The position numbers and the translations under genes are program-made. Positions 12,051-49,259 of a DNA stretch of 64,000 bases are shown here, in pieces (position 1 is the stretch's first letter; every line of letters starts with the position of its first letter). This stretch comes from Channallabes apus. Its lineage: Eukaryota > Chordata > Actinopteri > Siluriformes > Clariidae. The stretch spans positions 1,025,001-1,089,000 of the forward strand of contig CM060109.1 of assembly GCA_030522415.1 (NCBI GenBank), read 5' to 3'. The notes below the pieces were generated by a model. The model worked only from the letters and a program-made list of their open reading frames with translations. It was not told where the DNA came from and made no database searches.

Positions 12051-12613
12051 GTTAGTATATTAAGACTGAAATAAAGCGGCTCGCAAAGACAGCGCTTATT
12101 TAACACGTATAAATTTGTATTTGTTATATTTCTGGGAAATAGAAATCTCTTATAAATCTCTCATATCGGGTTCATGCGAACATTTTATATTCACTAACAG
12201 GCTTATTCACAACCACATTTCGGCCATTTACACACATACATAAAGTAAATAGAAGTAAGAGGCCCTGATTATACTGCATAAATATTATTTAGTAAAAAAA
12301 AAAAACAGACCCTGCGCTTATATTTAGGACTGATGCTGAACAGCTGTGTTCATAGGTTTAATCAACGATTTACAAGACAACAGTTAAAGCATTTGTGGAT
12401 GGAGAGGTGTGTGTGTGTGTCCGCTCCCGCATTTCTCCATTGGCTTTAACACACCCCCTCCCCCCACCAAAAACACACACACACACACAGAGCAATTAAC
12501 ACCATGTCATACTCAGTATTCTCCATTGAGGTTTCTCACTTTCCACTCCTTCTCAGTTTGTCTTTGCTCTTTTGTATGGGTCACATAATCACAAAGACAA
12601 ACTAGCACAGATA
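12051..12613. other. Intergenic DNA with a family-A internal fragment
   Basis: AT-rich with short GT and CA runs (12405-12420, 12470-12489). From 12490 to 12610 it resembles the interior of family A (20936-21070): it shares 'cagagcaattaacaccatgtc' and the 'cacataatcac' block, but part of it is in inverted order. Non-coding. Confidence 0.5.
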
Positions 12614-13312
12614 CAGTGGGAGCCACGTCAAACAGCCGCCTGGAGCATGATGGATCCATGGCAGGATCATGAAGGGTTAATGCAGGCTTCGTGCATGGAA
12701 TGTGATCCCCCGCGATGCCCCGCCCCATGAACGCCCACATGCGCTTTCTAAAAAGATGGTTGCAATGCCGTATAATTCCACCAGATGGAGCATTGACTGG
12801 CACAGTTAACTGCAGTGTCCAGGAAGCCCAATACCATATCTTTAATATATAGACAGTTCTTGTATTGTCAACATAGTTTCATAAATAGATGACGTGGTAA
12901 AAAACAACAAACCGATTAATAAAACAGATTTGTTAAATCACTCAATACACAACCCATGATGATTATGCTATTTATTATTTAATAATGACTTAATAAGACT
13001 AGTTAGTGAAATATTTTTTAAGACATCCTGAAATGATCCTTAAAGACACGGTAGCGTCTGTAATTTGTCTATACCGATCATTGTAGGTACGGAATAAAAA
13101 CGCGGGTTATGTACAGTATTTTACATTACGGTGTATTTTACCCCGTTCCATTTAATATACTGATTGATAATATTTTGCTGCAAAGTAAAGCTCAAAATGT
13201 AACGTCTGCTTGGGATTGTTTTCGTTATATTTTTGATGATGTTTTCGCTGATGTTATTTTTTCACTGATAGTCAACAAGTGGCATAAGAAAGGCAATTAA
13301 TGGTGCATGCAA
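12614..13312 (+). repeat. Family-A copy i: left-end fragment
   Basis: Starts TA|CAGTGGGAGCC and matches the first about 700 bp of the long copies at 18182 and 34782, then breaks off after 'gtgcatgcaaa'. No right terminus. It lacks the SH-like 'gacgcagttaacgat' stretch present near 18290 in the longer copy, so it is a distinct lineage. Non-coding. Confidence 0.75.
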
Positions 13313-16593: not shown

Positions 16594-18181
16594 ATGTCTG
16601 ACGGCGAGAACAACACAGCCACAGCCAAATCTGAGCATGAAACTGTGCTCGAGGACGAAGACCCAAAAAGGAAGCTTAAAAAATTTATGGAAATTCAAGA
16701 GGAAAAGTGGAGTCAAGTAACTGCACTATCCAACGAAATAGGGTCGCTCATGCGTGATGTCTGTAACTTGTACAACATTGAAACGAAGTACTATACGGAC
16801 TACAAAGAGCTGCTAAAGCACTTTAATCAGAGCAATAGAGAAGTGCGATTGCGTTTAAACGAACGTGAACAGGACCAGCAGAATTGGCACAAGCCCAAAT
16901 CACTGTGCAACACAGAATTTAAGGGAAAAGTGGAATCGTGGATCGCAGAAACAAAGAGCCTCTTCATGACGTCTCACACGCACAACGATGAAATTTCGTA
17001 GTGGCCGAGGGTAAAAAAATTGCTGCAAAAAAGCACGGAAGCGTAGCGACTGCTGCATCCAAAAGGTCCGTAACTTCTACAGCATCCTCAGCCCGACTAA
17101 AGAAAGCGGGAGCTAACAGAACAGCCTTATTGATTAAAGTAGCAGCCTTAGCAGAACGGCGGGCGCTAGAACAGAAGGAAGCACAATTAAAGGCTGAGGA
17201 AGAGCAATTGAAAGCACGATTAAAGGCTGAGGAAGAGCAATTGAAAGCACGATTAAAGGCTGAGGAAGAGCAATTGAAAGCACAATTAAAGAATAAATAG
17301 GCAGAACAAAAGCCTGAGAAAGAAAGGCTGGAATTAGAAACGGCGCTTGCAATTGTCGACGCTGAAATACAGGCTTATCAGGGTCGTGAAGAACGACAGC
17401 CTGCAACAAAGAGTGCAGTCATCGAATTGAGCAGCACGCACCTGAGCAGTGCGTACTTCTCCGACCCTGAATATGACAGCCGACGAAAGCCGGTAAGAGA
17501 GAGCTCAGTCAACGAACCAAGTAGCCCATGCGCTCCCAAATTGGAATACAATGAACTTTACGAGAGCAGTGCATCAACAGAATACCTCGGACTGCTATCA
17601 CATTTCGAGGCAGCCGATCCAAGTGTGCCCGTAAGTTTTTAACCAAAATTGAAAAGTACTTTAAATGAATGGTCTACCCAAGACAATAAATACACATGCT
17701 ATGACATTGATACATTAGAACCTCAGAGTATGATGCAACAGCAGGCAGATATTACAGCAATGCTTGAATGCCAAAGGCAATCCTCCTTACCTCAGCGCAA
17801 TGTTCCTGCGTTTCATGGTGACCCTCTTGAGTTTACGTCGTTCATGTAAGCGTTTAAACAAAACCGATAGTGATGCAAATAAGCTGTTTTATCTTGAGCA
17901 GTTTACTAGGGAAGAGGCTAGAGACCTCGTTATGAGCTGTCAGCTTATGCCAGATCAGTGTGGTTATGTAGACGCAATGAGACTGTTACAGGACAGATTT
18001 GGAAAAAACGAAAAATTGCAACCACGCTGATGCAAAAGGTAGCCAATTGGCCGGAAATAAAGTCAGAGGATGGAAAGTCGTTAAGCGCCTTCTCCATGTT
18101 TCTAGCATCCTGTCACAACATCATGGCAAGCATTGACCACATGGAGGAGCTAGACAACGCTACCAAACATGCAGGCTATTA
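16594..18181 (+). pseudogene. BEL/Pao gag, 5' part (split by family-A insertion)
   Basis: The frame from the ATG at 16594 gives an N-terminal charged helix region. A coiled-coil stretch with three near-identical 36-nt repeats (LKAEEEQLKARL, about 17186-17290) follows, then a linker and the DUF1759-type capsid core typical of BEL/Pao gag: PAFHGDPLEFTSFM (about 17805), NKLFYLEQFTREEARDL (about 17879), MRLLQDRFGK (about 17978) and AFSMFLASCHNIM (about 18089). Stops lie at about 16999, 17298 and 17639, and frame changes at about 17850, 18010 and 18165. The reading resumes at 23027 after the family-A element. Confidence 0.8.
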
Positions 18182-19224
18182 CAGTGGGAGCCACGTCAAA
18201 CAGCCGCCTGGAGCATGACGGCTCCGTGGCAGTTCCATGAAGGGTTAATGCAGGCTTCGTGCATGGAATGTGATCCCCCGCGATGACGCAGTTAACGATG
18301 CCCCACCCCATAAACGCCCCCATGCGCTTTCTAAAAAGATGGTTGCAATGCCGTATAATTCCGCCAGATGGAGCATTGACTGGCACAGTTAACTGCAGTG
18401 TCCAGGAAGCCCAATACCGTATGTTTAATATACAGACAGTTCTTGCATTGTCAACATAGTTTCATAAATAGATGAAAAAACAACAACAACAAACCGATTA
18501 ATAAAACAGATTTGTTAAATCACTCAATACACAACCCATGATGATTATGCTATTTATTATTTAATAATGAATTAATAAAATTAGTTAGTGAAATATTTTT
18601 TAAGACATCCTGAAATGTTCCTTAAAGACACGGTAGCGGCTGTAATTTGTCTATACCGATCATTGTAGGTACGGAATAAAAACGCGGGCTGTGTACAGTA
18701 TTTTACATTACGGTGTATTTTACCTCGTTCCATTTAATATACTGATAGATAATATTTTGCTGCAAAGTAAAGCTCAAAATGTAACGTCTGCTTGGGTTTG
18801 TTTTCGTTATATTTTTGATGATGTTTTCGCTGATTTTTTTTTCACTGATGGTCTACAAGTGGCATAAGAAATACAATTAATGCCGCATGCAACCTGGAAT
18901 AAATATCTGCCCATATGGATCAGTATTTCTTTAGTCATTTAATCATGCATAATGCTCCCCCGTCAAAAGATCTGATGGGGCATTAATCACTTATCACAAC
19001 TGTGAATGGATGCGGCAGCAGAGACACATTAAATCCCCATAAACACTTGGAAACAATAGTAAAAAAGTTCCAGAGGGTTAGCGCCTGTTATACTAATGTA
19101 TTTTTACTGATTTTTTTTTTTTACTGCTTATATTTCGTTGGTTTTTACGTAATTTTATGTGTGTGTGTGTGTGTGTGCGCGCACGAGAGAGAGAGGATAC
19201 TCTGACAAGACCAACTTCCGTGTG

Positions 19225-19370
19225 GCTCCCGTGGCGCAATCGGTTAGCGCGTGATACTTATAAAGCAGTCCAGGTGAAGCAATGCCGAGTTCGAGTCTCA
19301 CCTAAAGCACCCAAAGCATTTTACTGCATATCGTGCTGTGTATGTGACAAATCAAATTTGAATTTGAAAG
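19225..19370 (+). repeat. tRNA-Ile(UAU)-derived SINE with LINE-type tail, copy 1
   Basis: The head (19225-19309) begins GCTCCCGTGGCGCAATCGG with a D-arm/A-box, an anticodon region TACTTATA, an intron-like insert of about 20 nt, then ATGCCGA and a B-box GTTCGAGTC. This is the layout of an intron-containing tRNA-Ile(UAU) gene. The acceptor stem has about three mismatches and the variable/T-arm is shortened, so it is not a functional tRNA. The tail (19311-19370) ends 'ctgtgtatgtgacaaatc' plus AAATTTGAATTTG. It matches the minus-strand 3' end of the LINE at 46357-49259 over about 50 bp. A second copy lies at 35823-35964 in the paralogous element. Confidence 0.7.
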
Positions 19371-20391
19371 TAAAGCTTAAAATGTAACTTCTGCTTTGGT
19401 TTGTTTTTGTTATATTTTTGATGTTTTCGCTGAAAGTCAAATTGGCATAACAAATTGATTAATGGCGCATAATATCTGGAACAAATATCTGTCCATACAG
19501 ATCAGTGTGTCTTTAGTCATTTAACCAGCATAATGTCCCACATTAAAGATCTGATGGGGCATCAATCACTTATCACAACGGTGTATAGATGCGGCAGCAG
19601 AGACAGATTTAATCCCCATAAACATTCACACTTGAAAACAAAACTAACAGAAGTAAACAGTCCTAGAGTGTTAGTGCCTGTTATCACAGGACAGGAATCA
19701 CCTACAGGATACTACTGTATTTTACTGCTCATATTTTTTACCCTAGTTTCATTTGGTTTTATGCGATTTCATGTATTATTTGTGTGTGTCTGTGTGTGTA
19801 CAGTGTGTGTGTGTGAGTGCGAGAGATAGCGTGAGAGCGCGTGCGCGAGAGAGTGCTTTCATGCTGATTTATCCAAGGTTACTAAAACCTGGCTTACTAC
19901 CTATAAAAAATATTTCAATTTAACTCATTGGTCTCAATCACAGACACGACAAATTATATACTCTGAAACGTTCATTTTAACATTTAAAAATATATACAAA
20001 AACACGAATACTAATGTTATCATGGTGTAAATTATTAACATTAGGTTAGGTCCTGCCCTTAATTAATTCATATTATAATTACTTTTACATAGTATAGTTA
20101 CTGGACTGACATTAGCAAAAACTAGCTATTTCATTTAGCCTTTCTAAAATCAACCCATCTATCATTTATAATCAGAAATCATAAAACATATTATGATCTG
20201 TTCAATAGCCCATCTGTTTTAATTTAGTTTGTATTTTTTATTATTCATAAGACAACCTTTCAGTTTTTAAATATTTTAGTTATAGTGTGTTAAGTCTTAT
20301 TTTAGGTTAAACATTTTTGAGAATTTGACCATCCAGCTTAGATAAATGTTGTCATTGATTGATAAAATCTGGAGTAAGGATATTTTATTAT

Positions 20392-20448
<57 letters not shown>

Positions 20449-21300
20449 AGTTTCCCCTTGAGGGATTGCCACCTTATTGTGGTCAGGGGGTTTGCGTGCC
20501 TCAACACAATTCAGCAAATACAATACTGTTACTATACAGTAAGGCCAGGTAAAAACAGTGCTCGAACATGATGCCCCCCTCCCCCCACCCCGTGTTGTCT
20601 GGTCTAGAACGGCGCTGCCTCTGACCATCTTTTGTCTTGTAAATGAGTATTCTCACTCACCTTCCAATCCCCCCAGCGCACACACTCTGTTTGTACTGTA
20701 AACTGTAACTGTGTTTGCTAGGGCACTTAGTTATACACAGTACTTTAATGTATGGAACACTTACTTAACTTACTGGGTTGGTTTAAACATCGTTTATTAC
20801 CTTATTCAGCAAAATAAATTCATTATTAACGTATTGAAGTATTTTAGTTAAGGACAAAAACTGTGCTTGTGTTTAGAACTGCTGGACAGCCGAAAACACA
20901 CACACAACCATCCCCCCGCCAAAAACACACAACCACAGAGCAATTAACACCATGTCCTACTCAGGAGTGGAAGGTGAGAAACCTCAATGGAGAATACCAA
21001 GTTTGTCGTTGCTCTTTTGGAGTTCTTAAAACCCAAAACATTTATTTATACTGAGAAAAAATTATTATGGGTCACAATCACAAACACAAATACATATAAT
21101 CAAGTGTTTAACTGGTTTCATTTTTTTTCTATGATCAATAATAATTATTATTATTATTTTCAGCCCAACTCTTTGACTATTTAAAACAAAGTTGTGTCCC
21201 ATTTTTTGCCCATTGAAGTTGTTGGTTCAACTAAACAATTTTTAAATACCCAAACAATCCCCCAAAATTAAAACACGCAAACATGACTTTAACAATTCAA

Positions 21301-22086
21301 TTTATTCTTCCAAAACTAGTCAAAGTTAAAACAGTAATTTATATAAAACAGATGAATACATGTTGTCTTTTTGCTTAAAGTTCATTAAACTACCCGGATA
21401 CACCAGCTGCTTATAAGTCTCTATCTATAGTCCTTTTACATTAAAATATAAATTTTTCAAATATCAAAACTATTAAACATGGAACAGTTGAAGTCTTTGT
21501 TTCCCCCAAAGTACTGTATCAGACATTTTGCAGTTCTATGTTCAGAATATACAGTAGACCTGATCAAACATCATTCTAAAGCTGTCGGACTGTGACGTCA
21601 TCCCTCCTACAGCTCCCTCAACAGCTTGTTTAGGCTCTTCCAGTCCTGTAGCTCCAAAAGTCCAGCCGTCAGCCGTCTGACCCCCCAATCCTCCACAGCG
21701 GAGCTCTGCTTAAAGACAACAGGAGAATGTAGTCAAGAAAAAGATAAATAAACTTCACAGAACATATAGTTCTAATAAAAATAATATATATTAATAAACC
21801 TATTTACCACAGAGTGTGTAAAATACAGTTTTGGGGATTCTGTAATGTAAATAAACTGCCTGTGCTAATGTTAACCAGTGAACAGTGTTAGTGTTAACCA
21901 GTGAACAGTGTTAGTGTTAACCAGTGAACAGTGTTAGTGTTAACCACTGACTGTCTGTATTATCGTCTGAATTAAATTAACCGAGAATTTACTTAATGCG
22001 CTTCTCATACAAATAAGTTAAGCGATATAACACTCGTATATGAGCATTAGTTCATCCCTGAAGCCAAACTATAACTTACTGAAGCC

Positions 22087-22122
<36 letters not shown>

Positions 22123-22745
22123 CCCCCACACCTCCCCCCTCCTCCTCCTTAACTGATAAACACTTCTGTGTTGTTATTCAGCTCGTTAACTAAGCGCTCG
22201 CGCTACCGCGGAAAGTGTATAAAATATAAACCGGGTTATGAGCGTTACTAGCTCCTGTACAGCTCCCCTCAGTCTCTGTCCCTCATCAACTGCATCACAT
22301 TATATTACAGTCACAGAAATAACCTGCAGATTAACTCTTAACCAGAGAATAAATAAGCGCTGAATTTATCCAGACAACACGCGGTGAGATTCTCTCAGTA
22401 TTTACAGAGAACACAAACACTCTTCATCGGGTAGTGCAGCTCTTGTAATAGGGACATTAATAGTATTGTCGAAGCTTGAGCATGTTTTTGAGTTAAAGTG
22501 GAGTGACATTGTGAGTGTGTGACACTGACAGTAAGCTGTAATATTAACTCCAGACTTGGTAAACAGAACATTAAGTTCTCTAAAGTCACATCTGACCGCT
22601 GCTGGTGCTGCCAGTGATATTTAAAACAGCCAATAAAAAACTAAACTGGGAAATAAACTGTAAACTACCCCAAACACATTTTATAAAATAAAACATCACT
22701 TACCACGAATAGTCCGTTAAGCCGCCATCTTCGTCTCTGTAGTTT
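21301..22745 (-). pseudogene. Gene-like cassette carried by family A (copy ii): exon 1, intron, terminal exon, poly(A) signal
   Basis: Minus strand. GC-rich DNA with GC-box-like runs (about 22760-22780) and a TCACGTGA palindrome (22788-22795) lies upstream. Exon 1 carries ATGGCGGC at 22728 and ends CGTG|GTAAGT (donor at 22703-22698). The ATG frame closes after three codons (TAA), so this exon is untranslated or damaged. The intron is about 990 bp. The terminal exon (21607-21705) follows 'ttgtctttaagcag' and gives 32 codons plus TAG (SSAVEDWGVRRL... ending LLREL). AATAAA lies at 21306-21301. Joined, exon 1 in another frame reads into exon 2 without a stop. I do not recognise the protein. It may be a captured host gene fragment or the element's own small gene. 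Confidence 0.5.
21876..21955. repeat. 23-bp tandem repeat (VNTR) in family A
   Basis: A unit of 23 bp (GTTAACCAGTGAACAGTGTTAGT) is repeated about 3.5 times. The paralogous position in the other long copy (38442-38480) has only about 1.5 units, so copy number has changed since duplication. It lies in the intron of the gene-like cassette. Confidence 0.8.
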
Positions 22746-23026
22746 GGTAGCGTCAGTTCGGCGGGGGTGGAGGCGGGTTGTTAAAATCACGTGATTGCAA
22801 CTCAGCGCAGCTGGCTTGTTTTAACGTGTTATTGAGAACGAAGCGCCATCTAGTGGTGGCACCAGGTAAATGAATAAATAGGGCTTGAATGGGCGTGTTT
22901 ACTGTGAAATCTTGACATGCCTTTCGGCCAGAAAAGGGAGGGGGGATTACGGCGTGCAAAGGCCATTCACACGCCATTCACACTTCAGCCACACTGTCAC
23001 GGCTATTTGGCATGGCTCCCACTGTA

Positions 23027-34779: not shown

Positions 34780-35822
34780 TACAGTGGGGGCCACGTCAAA
34801 CAGCCGCCTGGAGCATGACGGCTCCATGGCAGGTCCATGAAGGGTTAATGCAGGCTTCGTGCACGAAATGTGATCCCCCACAATGACGCAATTAACGATG
34901 CCCCGCCCCATAAACGCCCCCATGCACTTTCTAAAAAGATGGTTGCAATGCCGTATAATTCCGCCAGATGGAGCATTGACTGGCACAGTTAACTGCAGTG
35001 TCCAGGAAGCCCAATACCGTATCTATAATATACAGACAGTTCTTGCATTGTCAACATAGTTTCATAAATAGATGAAAAAACAACAACAACAAACTGATTA
35101 ATAAAACAGATTTGTTAAATCACTCAATACACAACCCATGATGATTATGCTATTTATTATTTAATAATGAATTAATAAAATTAGTTAGTGAAATATTTTT
35201 TAAGACATTCTGAAATGATCCTTAAAGACACGGTAGCGGCTGTAATTTGTCTATACCAATCATTGTAGGTACGGAATAAAAACGCAGGCTACGTACAATA
35301 TTTTACATTACGGTGTATTTTACCTCGTTCCATTTAATATACTGATAGATAATATTTTGCTGCAAAGTAAAGCTCAAAATGTAACGTCTGCTTGGGTTTG
35401 TTTTCGTTATATTTTTGATGATGTTTTCGCTGATTTTTTTTTTCACTGATAGTCTACAAGTGGCATAAGAAAGGCAATTAATGGCGCATGCAACCTGGAA
35501 TAAATATCTGCCCATATGGATCAGTATTTCTTTAGTCATTTAATCATGCATAATGCTCCCCCGTCAAAAGATCTGATGGGGCATTAATCACTTATCACAA
35601 CTGTGAATGGATGCGGCAGCAGAGACACATTAAATCCCCATAAACACTTGGAAACAATAGTAAAAAAGTTCCAGAGGGTTAGCGCCTGTTATACTAATGT
35701 ATTTTTACTGATTTTTTTTTTTACTGCTTATATTTCGTTTGGTTTTACGCAATTTCGTGTGTGTGTGTGTGTGTGTGTGCGCACGAGAGAGAGGATACTC
35801 TGACAAGACCAACTTCCGTGTG

Positions 35823-35964
35823 GCTCCCGTGGCGCAATCGGTTAGCGCGTGGTACTTATAAAGCGGTCCAGGTGAAGCAATGAGTTCGAGCCTCCCTAAA
35901 GCACCCAAAGCATTTTACTGCATATCGCGCTGTGTATGTGACAAATCGAATTTGAATTTGAAAG
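35823..35964 (+). repeat. tRNA-Ile(UAU)-derived SINE, copy 2
   Basis: The paralogue of 19225-19370 within family-A copy iii. It keeps GTGGTACTTATA, closer to a tRNA-Ile anticodon arm than copy 1, but lacks 'gccg' after ATG and has a shortened T-arm stem (GTTCGAGCCTC). The LINE-like tail (AAATCGAATTTGAATTTG) is present. Not a functional tRNA gene. Confidence 0.7.
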
Positions 35965-37876
35965 TAAAGCTTAAAATTTAACTTCTACTTGGGTTTGTTT
36001 TCGTTATATTTTTGATGTTTTCGCTGATAGTCAAATTGGCATAACAAATTGATTAATGGCGCATAATATCTGGAACAAATATCTGTCCATACGGATCAGT
36101 GTGTCTTTAGTCATTTAACCAGCATAACGTCCCACATCAAAGATCTGATGGGGCACAAATCACTTATCACAACTGTGTATAGATGCAGCAGCAGAGACAG
36201 ATTTAATCCCCATAAACATTCACACTTGAAAACAAAACTAACAGAACTAAAGCTTTCTAGAGTGTTAGTGTCTGTTATCACAGGACAGGAATCACCTACA
36301 GGATACTACTGTATTTTTACTGCTCATATTTTTCACCCTAGTTTCATTTGGTTTTACGCGATTTCATGTGTTATTTGTGTGTGTCTGTGTGTGTACAGTG
36401 TGTGTGTGAGTGCGAGAGATAGCGTGAGAGCGCGTGCGCGAGAGAGGGCTTTCATGCTGATTTATCCAAGGTTACTAAAACCTGGCTTACTACCTATAAA
36501 AAATATTTCAATTTAACTGATGGGTCTCAATCACAGATGACACGACAAATTATATACTCTGAAACGTTCATTTGAACATTTAAAAACATATACAAAAACA
36601 TGAATACTAATGTTATCATGGTGTAAATTATTAACATTAGGTTAGGTCCTGCCCTTAATTAATTCATATTATAATTACTTTTACATAGTACAGTTACTGG
36701 ACTGACATGACCAAAAACTAGCTATTTCATTTAGCCTTCCTAAAATCAACCCATATATCACTTATAATCAGAAAACATAAAACATATTATGATCTGTTCA
36801 ACAGCTCATCTGTTTTAATTTAGTTTGTATTTTTTATTATTCATAAGACAGCCTTTCAGTTTTGTAAATATTTTAGTTATAGTGTGTTAAGTCTTACTTT
36901 AGTTTAAACGTTTGAGAATTTGACCATCCAGCTTAGATAAATGTTACGTCATTGATTCATAAAATCTGGATTAAGTATATTTTATTATATAATTATATAT
37001 ATATATATATATATTTATTTTTTAGTTTCCCCCTGAGGGATTGCCACCTTATTGTGGTCAGGGGGTTTGCGTGCATCAACACAATTCAGCAAATACAATA
37101 CTGTTACTATACAGTAAGGCCAGGTAAAAACAGTGCTCGAACATGATGCCCCCCTCCCCCCACCCCGTGTTGTCTGGTCTAGAACGTCCCTGCCTCTGAC
37201 CGTCTTTTGTCTTGTAAATGAGTATTCTCACTCACCTTCCAATCCCCCCAGCGCACACACTCTGTTTGTACTGTAAACTGTAACTGTGTTTGCTAGGGCA
37301 CTTGGTTATTCACAGTACTTTAATGTATGGAACACTTACTTAACTTACTGGTTTGGTTTAAACATCGCTTATTACCTTATTCAGCAAAAATAAATTCATT
37401 ATTAACGTATTGAAGTATTTTAGTTAAGGACAAAAACTGTGCTTGTGTTTAGAACTGCTGAACAGCCGAAAACACACACACACCCATCCCCCCGCCAAAC
37501 ACACACACACACACAGAGCAATTAACACCATGTCCTACTCAGGAGTGGAAGGTGAGAAACCTCAATGGAGAATACCAAGTTTGTCGTTGCTCTTTTGGAG
37601 TTCTTAAAACCCAAAACATTTATTTATACTGAAAAAAAATTATTATGGGTCACATAATCACAATCACAAATACATATAATCAAGTGTTTAACTGGTTTCA
37701 TTTGTTTCTATGATCAATAATTATTATTATTATTTTCAGCCCAACTCTTTGACTATTTAAAACAAAGTTGTGTCCCATTTTTTGCCCATTGAAGTTGTTG
37801 GTTCAACTAAACAATTTTTAAATACCCAAACAATCCCCCAAAATTAAAACACGCAAACATGACTTTAACAATTCAA

Positions 37877-38281: not shown

Positions 38282-38956
38282 CTGCTTAAAGACAACAGGA
38301 GAATTTAGTCAAGACAAAGATAAATAAACTTTACAGAACATATAGTTCTAATAAAAATAATATATATTAATAAACCTATTTACCACAGAGTGTGTAAAGT
38401 ACTGTTTTGGGGATTCTGGAATGTAAATAAACTGCCTGTGCTAATGTTAACCAGTGAACAGTGTTAGTGTTAACCAGTGACTGTCTGTATTATCGTCTGA
38501 ATTAAATTAACCGAGAATTTACTTAATGCGCTTTTCATAAAAATAAGTTAAGCGATATAACACTTGTATATGAGCATTAGTTCATCCCTGAAGCCAAACT
38601 ATAACTTACTGAAGCCCCTCACACACACACACACACAAACATACATACATACACACACACACACACCTCCCCCCTCCTCCTCTTAACTGATAAACAATTC
38701 AGTGTTGTTATTCAGCTCGTTAACTAAGCGCTCGCGCTACCGCGGAAAGTAAATATAAACCGGGTTATGAGCGTTACTAGCTCCTGTACAGCTCCCCTCA
38801 TTCTGTGTCCCTCATCAACTGCATCACATTATATTACAGTCACAGAAATAACCTGCAGATTAACTCTTAACCAAAGAATAAATAAGCGCTGAATTTATCC
38901 AGACAGCACGCCGTGAGATTCTCTCAGTATTTACAGAGAACACAAACACTCTTCAT

Positions 38957-39764
38957 TCACAGTTGTGATAAGTGATTAATGCCACATCAGATTTTTTGAC
39001 GGGGGAGTATTATGCATGATTAAATGACTAAAGAAATAGTGATCCATATGGTCAGATATTTGTTTCAGGTTGCATCCATTAATTGCCTTTGTAATGCCAC
39101 TTGTTGACTATCAGTGAAAAAAAACATCACCAAAAATATAACGAAAACAAACCTAAGCAGACGTTACATTTTGAGCTTTACTTTGCAGCAAAATATTATC
39201 TATCAGTATATTAAATGGAACTAGGTTAAATACACCGTAATATAAAATACTGTACATAGCCCGCGTTTTTATTCCGTACCTACAATGATCGATATAGACA
39301 AATTACTACCGTGTCTTTAAGGATTATTTCAGGATGTCCTAAAAAATATTTCACTAACTAGTTTTATTAATTTATTATTAAATAATAAATAACATAATCA
39401 TCATGGGTTGTGTATTGAGTGATTTAACAAATCTGTTTTATTAATCGGTTTGTTGTTGTTTTTTACCGCGTCATCTATTTATGAAACTATGTTGACAATA
39501 CAAGAACTGTCTGTATATTAAAGATATGGTATTGGGCTTCCTGGACACTGCAGTTAACTGTGCCAGTCAATGCTCCATCTGGCGGAATTATACGGCATTG
39601 CACCCATCTTTTTAGAAAGCGCATGGGGGCGTTCATGGGGCGGGGCATCGTTAAATGCGTCATCGTGGGGGATCCCATTCCGTGCACGGATCGTGCATTA
39701 ACCCTTCATGGACCTGCAATGGATCCATCATGCTCCAAGCGGCTGTTTGACCTTGCTCCCGCTG
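38957..39764 (-). repeat. Family-A copy iv: inverted left end
   Basis: The reverse complement of the first about 810 bp of the long copies. Its terminus at 39764 reads inward CAGCGGGAGC and is followed by TA. It joins copy iii head-on at 38956/38957 with short shared bases (ttcat/attca). The frame 39560-40087 runs across this end into the LINE and is a chance fusion. Confidence 0.8.
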
Positions 39765-39766
39765 TA

Positions 39767-46356: not shown

Positions 46357-49259
46357 TACTATCTAATTCAAAATTCAATTTAAATTCAAATTTTATTCGT
46401 CACATACACAGTCATACACAGTATAATATGCAGTGAAATGCTTATACGACCGCCAGTGACCTTAAAAAGAAAATAAAAGCTTGTACGTAAAATAAATAAT
46501 CAATAAAAAGGAAATACTAAAGAAATTATTTTAACTAGTAAAATTAAGTGTACAATAAGGGCATAATAAAATATTGCAAATAGAGTATATATGTATATAG
46601 AATTAAAGTGTCATTGGTTGTGCAAATATGCATGAAAGGTGACATGTGCAATTGTCCAGATGTATAAATATTTAGTGCAAGGGTGTATGAATGTGTCCAT
46701 GATTGTCCAGTCAGTGTTGTGAGCTTAAAAGATGTTATTAGTCCTGTGTGGAGGTGTAATTGAGAGACCTTATCGCCTGCGGGAAGAAGCTCCTCCTCAG
46801 CCTCTCTATGTTGGCCTTTAGGGAGCGGAATCGCTTCCCAGACCGCAACAAAGAGAACAGTCCATTACTGGGGTGACTGAGGTCCTTCATGATCTTCCTG
46901 GCCTTAGTCCAGCACCGCTTGCTGTAGATGGAGTGCAGGTCAGGGAGCTCAGTGCGGATGATGCGCTCGGCTGATCGCACCACCCTCTGTAGAGCTCGTC
47001 TGTCCTGCATGGTGCTGTTCCCGAACCAGGTCGTGATGTTTCCCGTCAGGATGCTCTCTATGGTGCAGGAGTAGAAGTTCCTGAGCACCTTGGAGGGCAG
47101 TCTAAAGTCTCTCAAGCGTCTGAGGTGGTAGAGATGCTGCCGGGCTTTTTCACCACAGTGTTGATGTGACAGGACCATGACAGGTCCTGCGTGATGTGAA
47201 CACCGAGGTATCTGAAGCTGTCCACTCTCTCCACTGGGCTCCTGTTGATGACGGGGGTCTGGTAGTTCCTCTCCTGCTTTGTACTAAAGTCCACTATCAG
47301 CTCCTTTGTCTTACTGACGTTCAGGAGGAGATTGTTCCTCTGGCACCAGTTCTCCAGATTTCCAATCTCCTCTAGGTAGTCCGACTCATCATTGTTGGTG
47401 ATCAGTCCGACCACGACGGTGTCGTCAGCAAACTTGATGATGGAGGTGGAGTTGGTAGTGGCCACGCAGTCGTGGGTGTACAAAGAGTACAGCAGGGGGC
47501 TCAGAACACAACCCTGGGGGGCTCCAGTGCTGAGAGTGAGTGTAGCTGAGACATGACCGCCCATCCTTACTGCCTGTGGTCTGCCAGTCAGAAAATTGGA
47601 GATCCACTGACATATAGATGAGCTGAGTCCCAGGTGCTCCAGCTTGGTGGTGAGTGTGGAGGGAATTATGGTATTAAAAGCAGAGCTGTAGTCGATGAAG
47701 AGCATTTTAACATAATTCCCTTTCCTAGTGTCCAGGTGAGTGAGTGATGTGTGGAGGAGATGAGAGATTGCATCGTCTGTGGAGCGGTTCTGACGGTATG
47801 CAAACTGTAGTGGGTCCAGTGTGTCGGGTAGTGAAGAAATGATGAAGTCTCTGATAAGGCGTTCAAAGCACTTCATCACTACTGAGGTGAGGGCGATAGT
47901 CATTGAGGGAAGCAGGATGTGGTTTCTTCGGGACAGGAACAATGATGGACTCTTTGAAGCACGTGGGGATCACCGACTGAGATAGAGAGATGTTGAATAT
48001 CTCAGTGATCACAGGTGCTAGCTGGTCTGCGCAGGCTCTGAGGATACGGCCTGAGATGCCTTCTGGTCCTGCTGCTTTCCTGGTGTTCACTCTCTTGAAG
48101 GCTCTCCTCACGTCGTGCTCGGAGATGATGAGCGCGTTCCCGGTGCTGGCAGTGTCTTCCTGTCTGCAGCCGTTAGCGCCACTAGCATTAGCGCCGTTAG
48201 CATTAGCGCCGTTAGCGTTAGCGCCGTTAGCGTTAGCATCGCTAGCGTCTTTAGCTGCAGCCTCGAAGCGAGCATAGAAGGTGTTGAGCTCGTCTGCCAG
48301 AGTCGCGTCCGCATTCTTCATACCGGATGTTGGTGCTTTATAATCCGTTATTGTTCTCAGTCCCTGCCACAGGCTCCTAGAGTCACTCTGTTGAAGCTGT
48401 GACTCTAGTTTTCTCCCGTAGCGCTGCTTCGCCTCTTTCACCGCCTTCCGGACGTTATATGATGCAGCCTTGTACGGTTCCATGTCCCCCGACGCAAGTC
48501 CCGTGTTGTAGGCAGCTGTGCGAGATCTCAGAGCGTCACGGATGGTTTTATCCACCCACGGCTTCTGGTTGGGAAACGTTCTGATAGTCTTTTTCTCCAC
48601 CGTATCGTCTACCAGCTTCTCAATAAATCCCACAACCGCTTCCGTAAACACGCTGACGTCATCATCGGAGCTGTTTCTGAACATGTCCCAGTCTGCGTCA
48701 TCGAGTGCGTCCTGTAACGCGGCCACCGATTGGTCCGTCCAGCGCGTGACCTCCCTCTGAACCGGAACTTCCTGTTTCAGCCTTTGTTTATATTTTGGCA
48801 TGAGGAAGATGGCGGCGTGGTCGGATTTACCAAACGCTGGACGAGATTGTGCCTTGTAACCGTCTTTGACCGTGGTATAACAATGGTCCAGTGTCCTTTC
48901 GCCCCTGGTGGGGCAGGTGATGTGCTGATAAAAGTTCGGCGCTGCGCGTTTGAGGTTGGCACTATTAAAGTCCCCCGCCACAATGAGCGCAGCGTCCCGG
49001 TGTTGTGTCTGGTGCTGTGTGAGTGCCTCATGCAGCTCGCATAAGGCAGTTTCAGTGTCTGCTTGTGGTGAGATGTAAACGGCACTGATTATGACCGATG
49101 TGAACTCCCGTGGAAGATAAAAAGGACGACACATGATGGACAGTAGTTCCAGGTTTGGTGTGCAGGAGCGTGTAAGAGGAACAACGCTCGCGCTGTTGCA
49201 CCAGCTGTTGTTCACCATTAAGCACACGCTGCCTCCCCTTCACTTCCCCGAGTCCCGCG
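46357..49259 (-). mobile_element. CR1/Rex1-like LINE, 5'-truncated, with 7-bp target duplication
   Basis: Inserted in the RTE LINE with the duplication TCCTGTC at 46350-46356 and 49260-49266. Minus strand: ORF2 from 49259 (the endonuclease lacks its first segment) to the stop at 46738, then a 3' UTR of about 380 bp ending in AAATTTGAATTTAAATTG-type sequence at 46357-46400. The 3' end matches the tails of the SINEs in family A. Only two frameshifts are visible, so it is one of the younger elements here. Confidence 0.85.
46738..49243 (-). pseudogene. LINE ORF2 (endonuclease / reverse transcriptase), two frameshifts
   Basis: The main frame 49227-47863 (454 codons) carries the endonuclease end (AGDFNSANL at about 48970, KSDHAAIF at about 48830) and the RT start (RKAAGPEGISGRIL at about 48080, VPVPKK at about 47940). 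After a shift near 47900 (NDYRP), the frame 47942-47112 carries [11 protein letters not shown] (about 47695), [16 protein letters not shown] (about 47530) and the catalytic [10 protein letters not shown] (about 47425). A second shift in an A-run near 47150 leads to the C-terminal frame 47178-46738. Near 48180-48250 a tandem ANG/ANGAN codon repeat expands the linker between endonuclease and RT. Confidence 0.85.

Follow-up and report, generated by a model that had tools for sequence, protein, structure and literature searches.

A tRNA-Ile(UAU)/LINE fusion carried by a DNA transposon in Channallabes apus, and joints between tRNA precursors and another SINE

TguSINE1 and PittSINE of passerine birds combine a head derived from tRNA-Ile or tRNA-Asp with the tail of a CR1 LINE. 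It has been proposed that PittSINE gained its new head by a template switch from SINE RNA to tRNA, and the part of that report available to us states that alternatives to template switching were untestable in pitta without a genome assembly (PMC5729268). Chimeras of U6 snRNA with retroelements, formed by template switching, are described for L1, L2 and Mon-1 in the accessible portion of another report, with the L2 and Mon-1 SINE chimeras reported in platypus (PMC4476161). Human pre-tRNA retropseudogenes have been attributed to L1 (Schmitz et al. 2004, as cited in PMC4476161).

In this study, we analysed a 64,000-nt stretch of the Channallabes apus genome (hereafter the window) and followed one of its features into the rest of the assembly. 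Positions 19222-19366 of the window hold a tRNA head and a LINE tail, as in TguSINE1 and PittSINE, for which a template switch was proposed. Those two spread as SINEs, whereas the present fusion keeps the tRNA intron and its examined copies lie in a DNA transposon; also unlike the bird elements as described in the available text (PMC5729268), many pre-tRNA joints are readable here in one genome. Like the U6 chimeras, in which target duplications are described, the joints place a small Pol III RNA 5' of a retroelement, but here several isotypes of pre-tRNA act as donors, as does a tRNA-like RNA borne by the transposon. As with the human retropseudogenes, tRNA precursors would have entered the genome by reverse transcription; unlike those L1-attributed cases, the joint here is to a tRNA-SINE (PMC4476161, as far as its text was available). 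The kind of event is thus already known, since template switching was described for U6 and proposed for PittSINE (PMC4476161, PMC5729268; same parts of both). What is new is that the head keeps its intron and is carried by a DNA transposon, and that so many pre-tRNA joints can be read in one genome. No intron-retaining tRNA-Ile SINE head was found in the accessible parts of the literature on tRNA-headed SINEs and on template-switch or pre-tRNA chimeras, including PMC10886601, PMC10714607, PMC4176376, PMC4476161, PMC5729268 and PMC5322556, and a literature search by sequence words found no published name for these sequences. We put the probability at roughly 0.7 that the whole chain holds, namely a fossil fusion carried as a passenger of transposon A, with its head RNA and pre-tRNAs captured onto another SINE by template jumping.

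An unspliced tRNA-Ile head, a LINE tail and the surrounding transposon

The fusion begins with a tRNA-Ile(UAU) head that keeps its intron and continues through a short linker into the 3' end of a LINE. The head with its linker (19222-19313, plus strand) was aligned with a gene of the same genome at locus L023, which ARAGORN called as tRNA-Ile(tat) with a 19-nt intron. The two were collinear through the intron, which occupies 19263-19281 of the window, and 17 of the 19 intron positions were identical as counted on the alignment. Eight nt of the gene, just 3' of the intron, are missing from the window head, and the alignment places this deletion at 19286-19287. The first-pass annotation had derived the head from an unspliced pre-tRNA-Ile(UAU), and the collinear intron bears this out; the 8-nt deletion, a T-run between head and tail, and a TA-flanked transposon around both window copies are additions to that description. 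A second fusion copy was found at 35819-35965 (plus strand), inside a second copy of the transposon. ARAGORN found a tRNA neither in the window nor in the copy taken by itself, and on this ground a true tRNA gene was set aside. SCARNA7 was rejected as an identity because the match reached 32.5 bits against a cutoff of 65 and appeared to rest largely on a GT repeat.

The LINE-derived tail was delimited at 19314-19366 (plus strand). Its positions 19314-19365 aligned with the 3' end of a minus-strand LINE near 46379 with a score of 60, compared with 27 for the best of 500 shuffles and 30 for the best of 2966 random 90-mers from the window. The earlier claim of a tail common to a LINE in the window therefore stands. 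A head derived from a tRNA and a tail in common with a partner LINE are two of the features by which a SINE family is recognized, and the fusion has both. The LINE lies at 46379-49259, where 46379 is its 3' end and the other limit is that of the first-pass annotation. Its frames matched RVT_1 (E 2.7e-27) and, below the cutoff, Exo_endo_phos_2. A minus-strand frame at 46738-47283 also matched the Pfam model ALKBH8_N above its cutoff, which probably reflects a LINE-derived part of that model. A 35-place pattern of the LINE 3' end gave 3881 exact matches in the genome, and among the matches listed the variant GCATATCGTACTGTG was closer to the fusion tail than the window LINE copy. The partner is probably an abundant LINE of the L2 clade. 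By description, rather than by tree or tail alignment, it is likened to ZfL2-1, ZfL2-2 and UnaL2, fish stringent L2-clade LINEs with a 3' tail of the kind that SINEs can share according to the available part of PMC4176376. Folding spoke against an RNA structure common to both tails: the fusion tail did not outperform its shuffles (z 0.24), and that of the LINE did so only slightly (z -1.74, with 12 of 200 shuffles as good). A conserved fold of the entire unit was rejected because it, too, did not exceed shuffles.

Head and tail are separated by a T-run at 19319-19322 (plus strand), a probable Pol III stop. Of 46 copies that a regular expression matched, 45 have TTTT at this place, as do 9 copies of an older type. 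The window LINE has TTTCAC at this position, as the LINE pattern does by design. TTTT is a usual stop for vertebrate Pol III, and transcription of the head is therefore expected to end before the tail. We infer that Pol III would make a head RNA of about 100 nt, from TGTGGCTCC to the T-run, lacking the tail needed for its own retroposition. A T-run ahead of the tail would speak against a Pol III transcript that includes the tail.

The fusion lies within an element designated A (18182-23024, plus strand), which has the same ends in other copies and starts and ends with inverted CAGTGGGAGCC. Including the flanking TA, its left inverted end (18180-18206) is a 27-nt arm that is 89% complementary to the right end on the minus strand (23000-23026). 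TA was found on both sides of the window A and of 10/10 other copies with both ends in view, from 12 ten-kilobase loci taken. Inverted ends that are each bordered by TA mark A as a DNA transposon with a TA target. The longest frame overlapping A encodes 141 aa. Both window fusion copies sit within copies of A. Partial A matches at 12612-13312 and 38954-39766 include the left end of A and not the fusion. At two further loci (L115 and L129), a tRNA-like head has a 3' part (CTGACAAGA..AACT) similar to the A sequence just 5' of the fusion, and from this likeness A may hold a further tRNA remnant.

The head and tRNA precursors joined to another SINE

Four loci (L024, L026, L038 and L094) matched A over the head only, from 19220-19222 to 19320-19323, and had no A flanks. 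After the head, they join at once or after a few bases to GGCAGTGGTGGC, the 5' end of another SINE. This SINE begins GGCAGTGGTGGCTC... and ends in TTC repeats. L095, on the same contig as L094 and with nearly all 20-mers in common, was counted together with it. At L093, a pre-tRNA-Ile with its intron and a full T-arm is joined to the same SINE at GAGTTTT. When tRNA T-arms lying 8-38 nt ahead of the start of this SINE were sought, 39 matches were obtained, compared with 1 at a control spacing of 58-88 nt; 38 of the 39 were examined, leaving out one apparent duplicate. Of 44 chimera loci analysed, 16 received a tRNA call from ARAGORN: five Gly, three His, two each of Leu and Glu, and a single Asp, Arg, Ser and Ala. 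The Ala call belongs to L093, whose anticodon region and intron led us to read it as Ile. Some of the chimera loci without a call resemble other tRNA-derived repeats. A tRNA-Glu-like head (TGCTTAAGGTACATGC) recurs before the same SINE at L097, L099, L100, L102, L103, L106 and L133 with differing joint lengths; this group is either one dimer family or the product of repeated captures.

We examined where the donor sequences end. After L095 was dropped, 33 of the 43 remaining chimeras had TTT no more than 6 nt from the joint, compared with 27 of the first 100 SINE copies listed (odds ratio 8.9, p 3.5e-8). This p value treats the chimeras as independent and is only a guide, because some of them come from repeated tRNA-like groups and at least one of the 100 control copies is also a member of the set. 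By the measure used, 10 of the 43 joints, L094 among them, have no T-run. A donor that ends at its own terminator at the joint is a mark of template-switch chimeras, and these T-rich joints show it.

The flanks of whole chimeras were compared at 21 loci, those with the SINE end found among 26 after leaving out L095 as a duplicate and L098, L101, L105 and L112, which had no such end. Flank repeats of at least 6 nt occurred in 8 of the 21, compared with 2.5 by permutation (p 0.0012), and 13 fell below 6 nt. The mean repeat length was 5.05 against 4.28 by permutation (p 0.0004). Examples are CATTAT in L094, CTGGTGA in L103, TTATATG in L114 and CTACATG in L109. The longest repeat (L113) falls in a CA repeat, and L024 and L093 had no flank repeat longer than 3 nt. 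The joints, the missing A flanks and the excess of flank repeats show that the head and pre-tRNAs have been fused to the 5' end of the other SINE.

The same neighbours could in principle be insertions into existing genes, if the SINE GGGCAGTGG... inserted beside tRNA genes at their terminators and no RNA was captured. Joints at or near T-runs would be expected from this, and some of the tRNA parts appear intact. Such insertion leaves unexplained the four loci that have the A-borne head with no A flank on either side, and the repeats outside the whole chimera are commoner than by permutation. We therefore regard insertion beside tRNA genes as improbable and favour RNA capture.

Copies of the fusion in the A lineage

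A-lineage sequence was present on at least one side of all 41 fusion copies examined (7/7, 6/6, 20/20 and 8/8), which were picked by hand rather than at random and include two truncated groups. Among them, L134 has almost no head, and the head is incomplete in L083, L135 and L139. In L082 and L087 the end of the tail is missing, and the tail is interrupted by other elements that entered at the TA within GTGTATGTG; the one in L082 is an A end. The best 40 fusion matches were 98-100% identical, and the seven of these compared with A (L002-L008) all lay inside it. A pattern across the deletion joint gave 1128 exact matches, and A flanked all of 20 copies chosen non-randomly among those listed (C1 and C2), on one side or both. 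Six GTACAGG-variant copies likewise all lay in A-lineage sequence. An older linker type gave 102 matches at up to 2 mismatches; the 8 examined all ran into A-lineage sequence 3', and in one of them (L141) the A-lineage match was short, scored weakly and was judged by eye. Mean divergence was 6.2% among the 20 picked copies and 11.3% between these and the 8 older-type copies.

Heads with a 5' flank unlike A were also searched for. There were 5 exact matches and 76 at up to 2 mismatches, 45 of which were examined. At 25 of these loci there were tRNA-Ile genes or close pseudogenes, and 16 were A-lineage copies whose flanks had changed; the rest were the three head-only loci L024, L026 and L038 and the pre-tRNA chimera L093. 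None of the 45 was a head-plus-tail copy outside A. Of the 31 matches left unexamined, 28 fall in two clusters, one at C1 38.1 Mb and the other at C16 6.3 Mb, whose examined members are tRNA genes. Intron-bearing tRNA-Ile(UAU) genes are clustered at C1 38.07-38.16 Mb and C16 6.30-6.37 Mb, and the C1 cluster contains many matches about 1.6 kb apart. A search of A 5' flanks found no ancestral A without the fusion; the three matches that it gave are all deleted copies that still contain part of the fusion or head. By eye, no target duplication was seen at the ends of the fusion within A. These results show that the fusion, as far as sampled, spreads as a passenger of the cut-and-paste transposon A.

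The first-pass annotation had proposed a SINE family mobilised by the window LINE. If the fusion were a SINE family of its own, moved by its partner LINE, its copies would be spread by retroposition; the tRNA-derived head, the LINE tail and the number of genomic matches speak for this. Independent dispersed insertions of head and tail, which mark a SINE family, were not found in this sample, which is not a full survey. The A-lineage flanks of every copy examined and the T-run ahead of the tail in nearly all copies also weigh against it, and we consider a separate SINE family quite unlikely. That annotation had named copies confined to A as the outcome that would point to a fossil passenger, and for head and tail together this was the outcome as far as sampled. 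Insertions outside A, which it had suggested looking for, do exist; they have the head alone, joined to the other SINE, and none has head plus tail.

Proposed origin and capture of tRNA precursors

The first fusion likely had a LINE-driven origin. Older-type copies contain GCACAGATTT and then ATAAGCATTTTACTGC, and at the matching place the L023 tRNA-Ile gene has GCACAGGTTTTAAAC and LINE copies have GGTCGTATAAGCATTTCACTGC. This resemblance to the tRNA trailer suggests that the reverse transcriptase of the LINE left LINE RNA and continued on a pre-tRNA-Ile(UAU), starting at its U-ended 3' terminus. The fusion would then have come to sit in an ancestor of A; that cut-and-paste transposition multiplied it is shown for the sampled copies by their flanks and TA ends. 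The head RNA and unprocessed precursors of several true tRNAs would have become joined to the other SINE by template jumping, in which synthesis reaches the 5' end of the SINE RNA and moves on to a pre-tRNA at its U-ended 3' end. DNA recombination or gene conversion involving an A copy and the SINE is a very improbable source of the chimera head, because, numerous as A copies are, four loci share nearly identical limits (head start and T-run) with no A flank.

In the capture series that we consider fairly probable, a reverse transcriptase finishing tRNA-SINE RNA jumps to unprocessed and sometimes unspliced pre-tRNAs, and the transposon supplies one of the captured RNAs. It has been proposed that SINEs acquire heads by template switching to a tRNA. 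With dozens of tRNA/SINE joints in a single assembled genome, this step becomes testable. A tRNA/LINE fusion can also become numerous as part of a DNA transposon; a high copy number by itself is therefore no proof of SINE activity. If the capture series is true, the head-gain step of a SINE would be readable directly across several isotypes, and a DNA transposon would be supplying one captured RNA from very many places in the genome.
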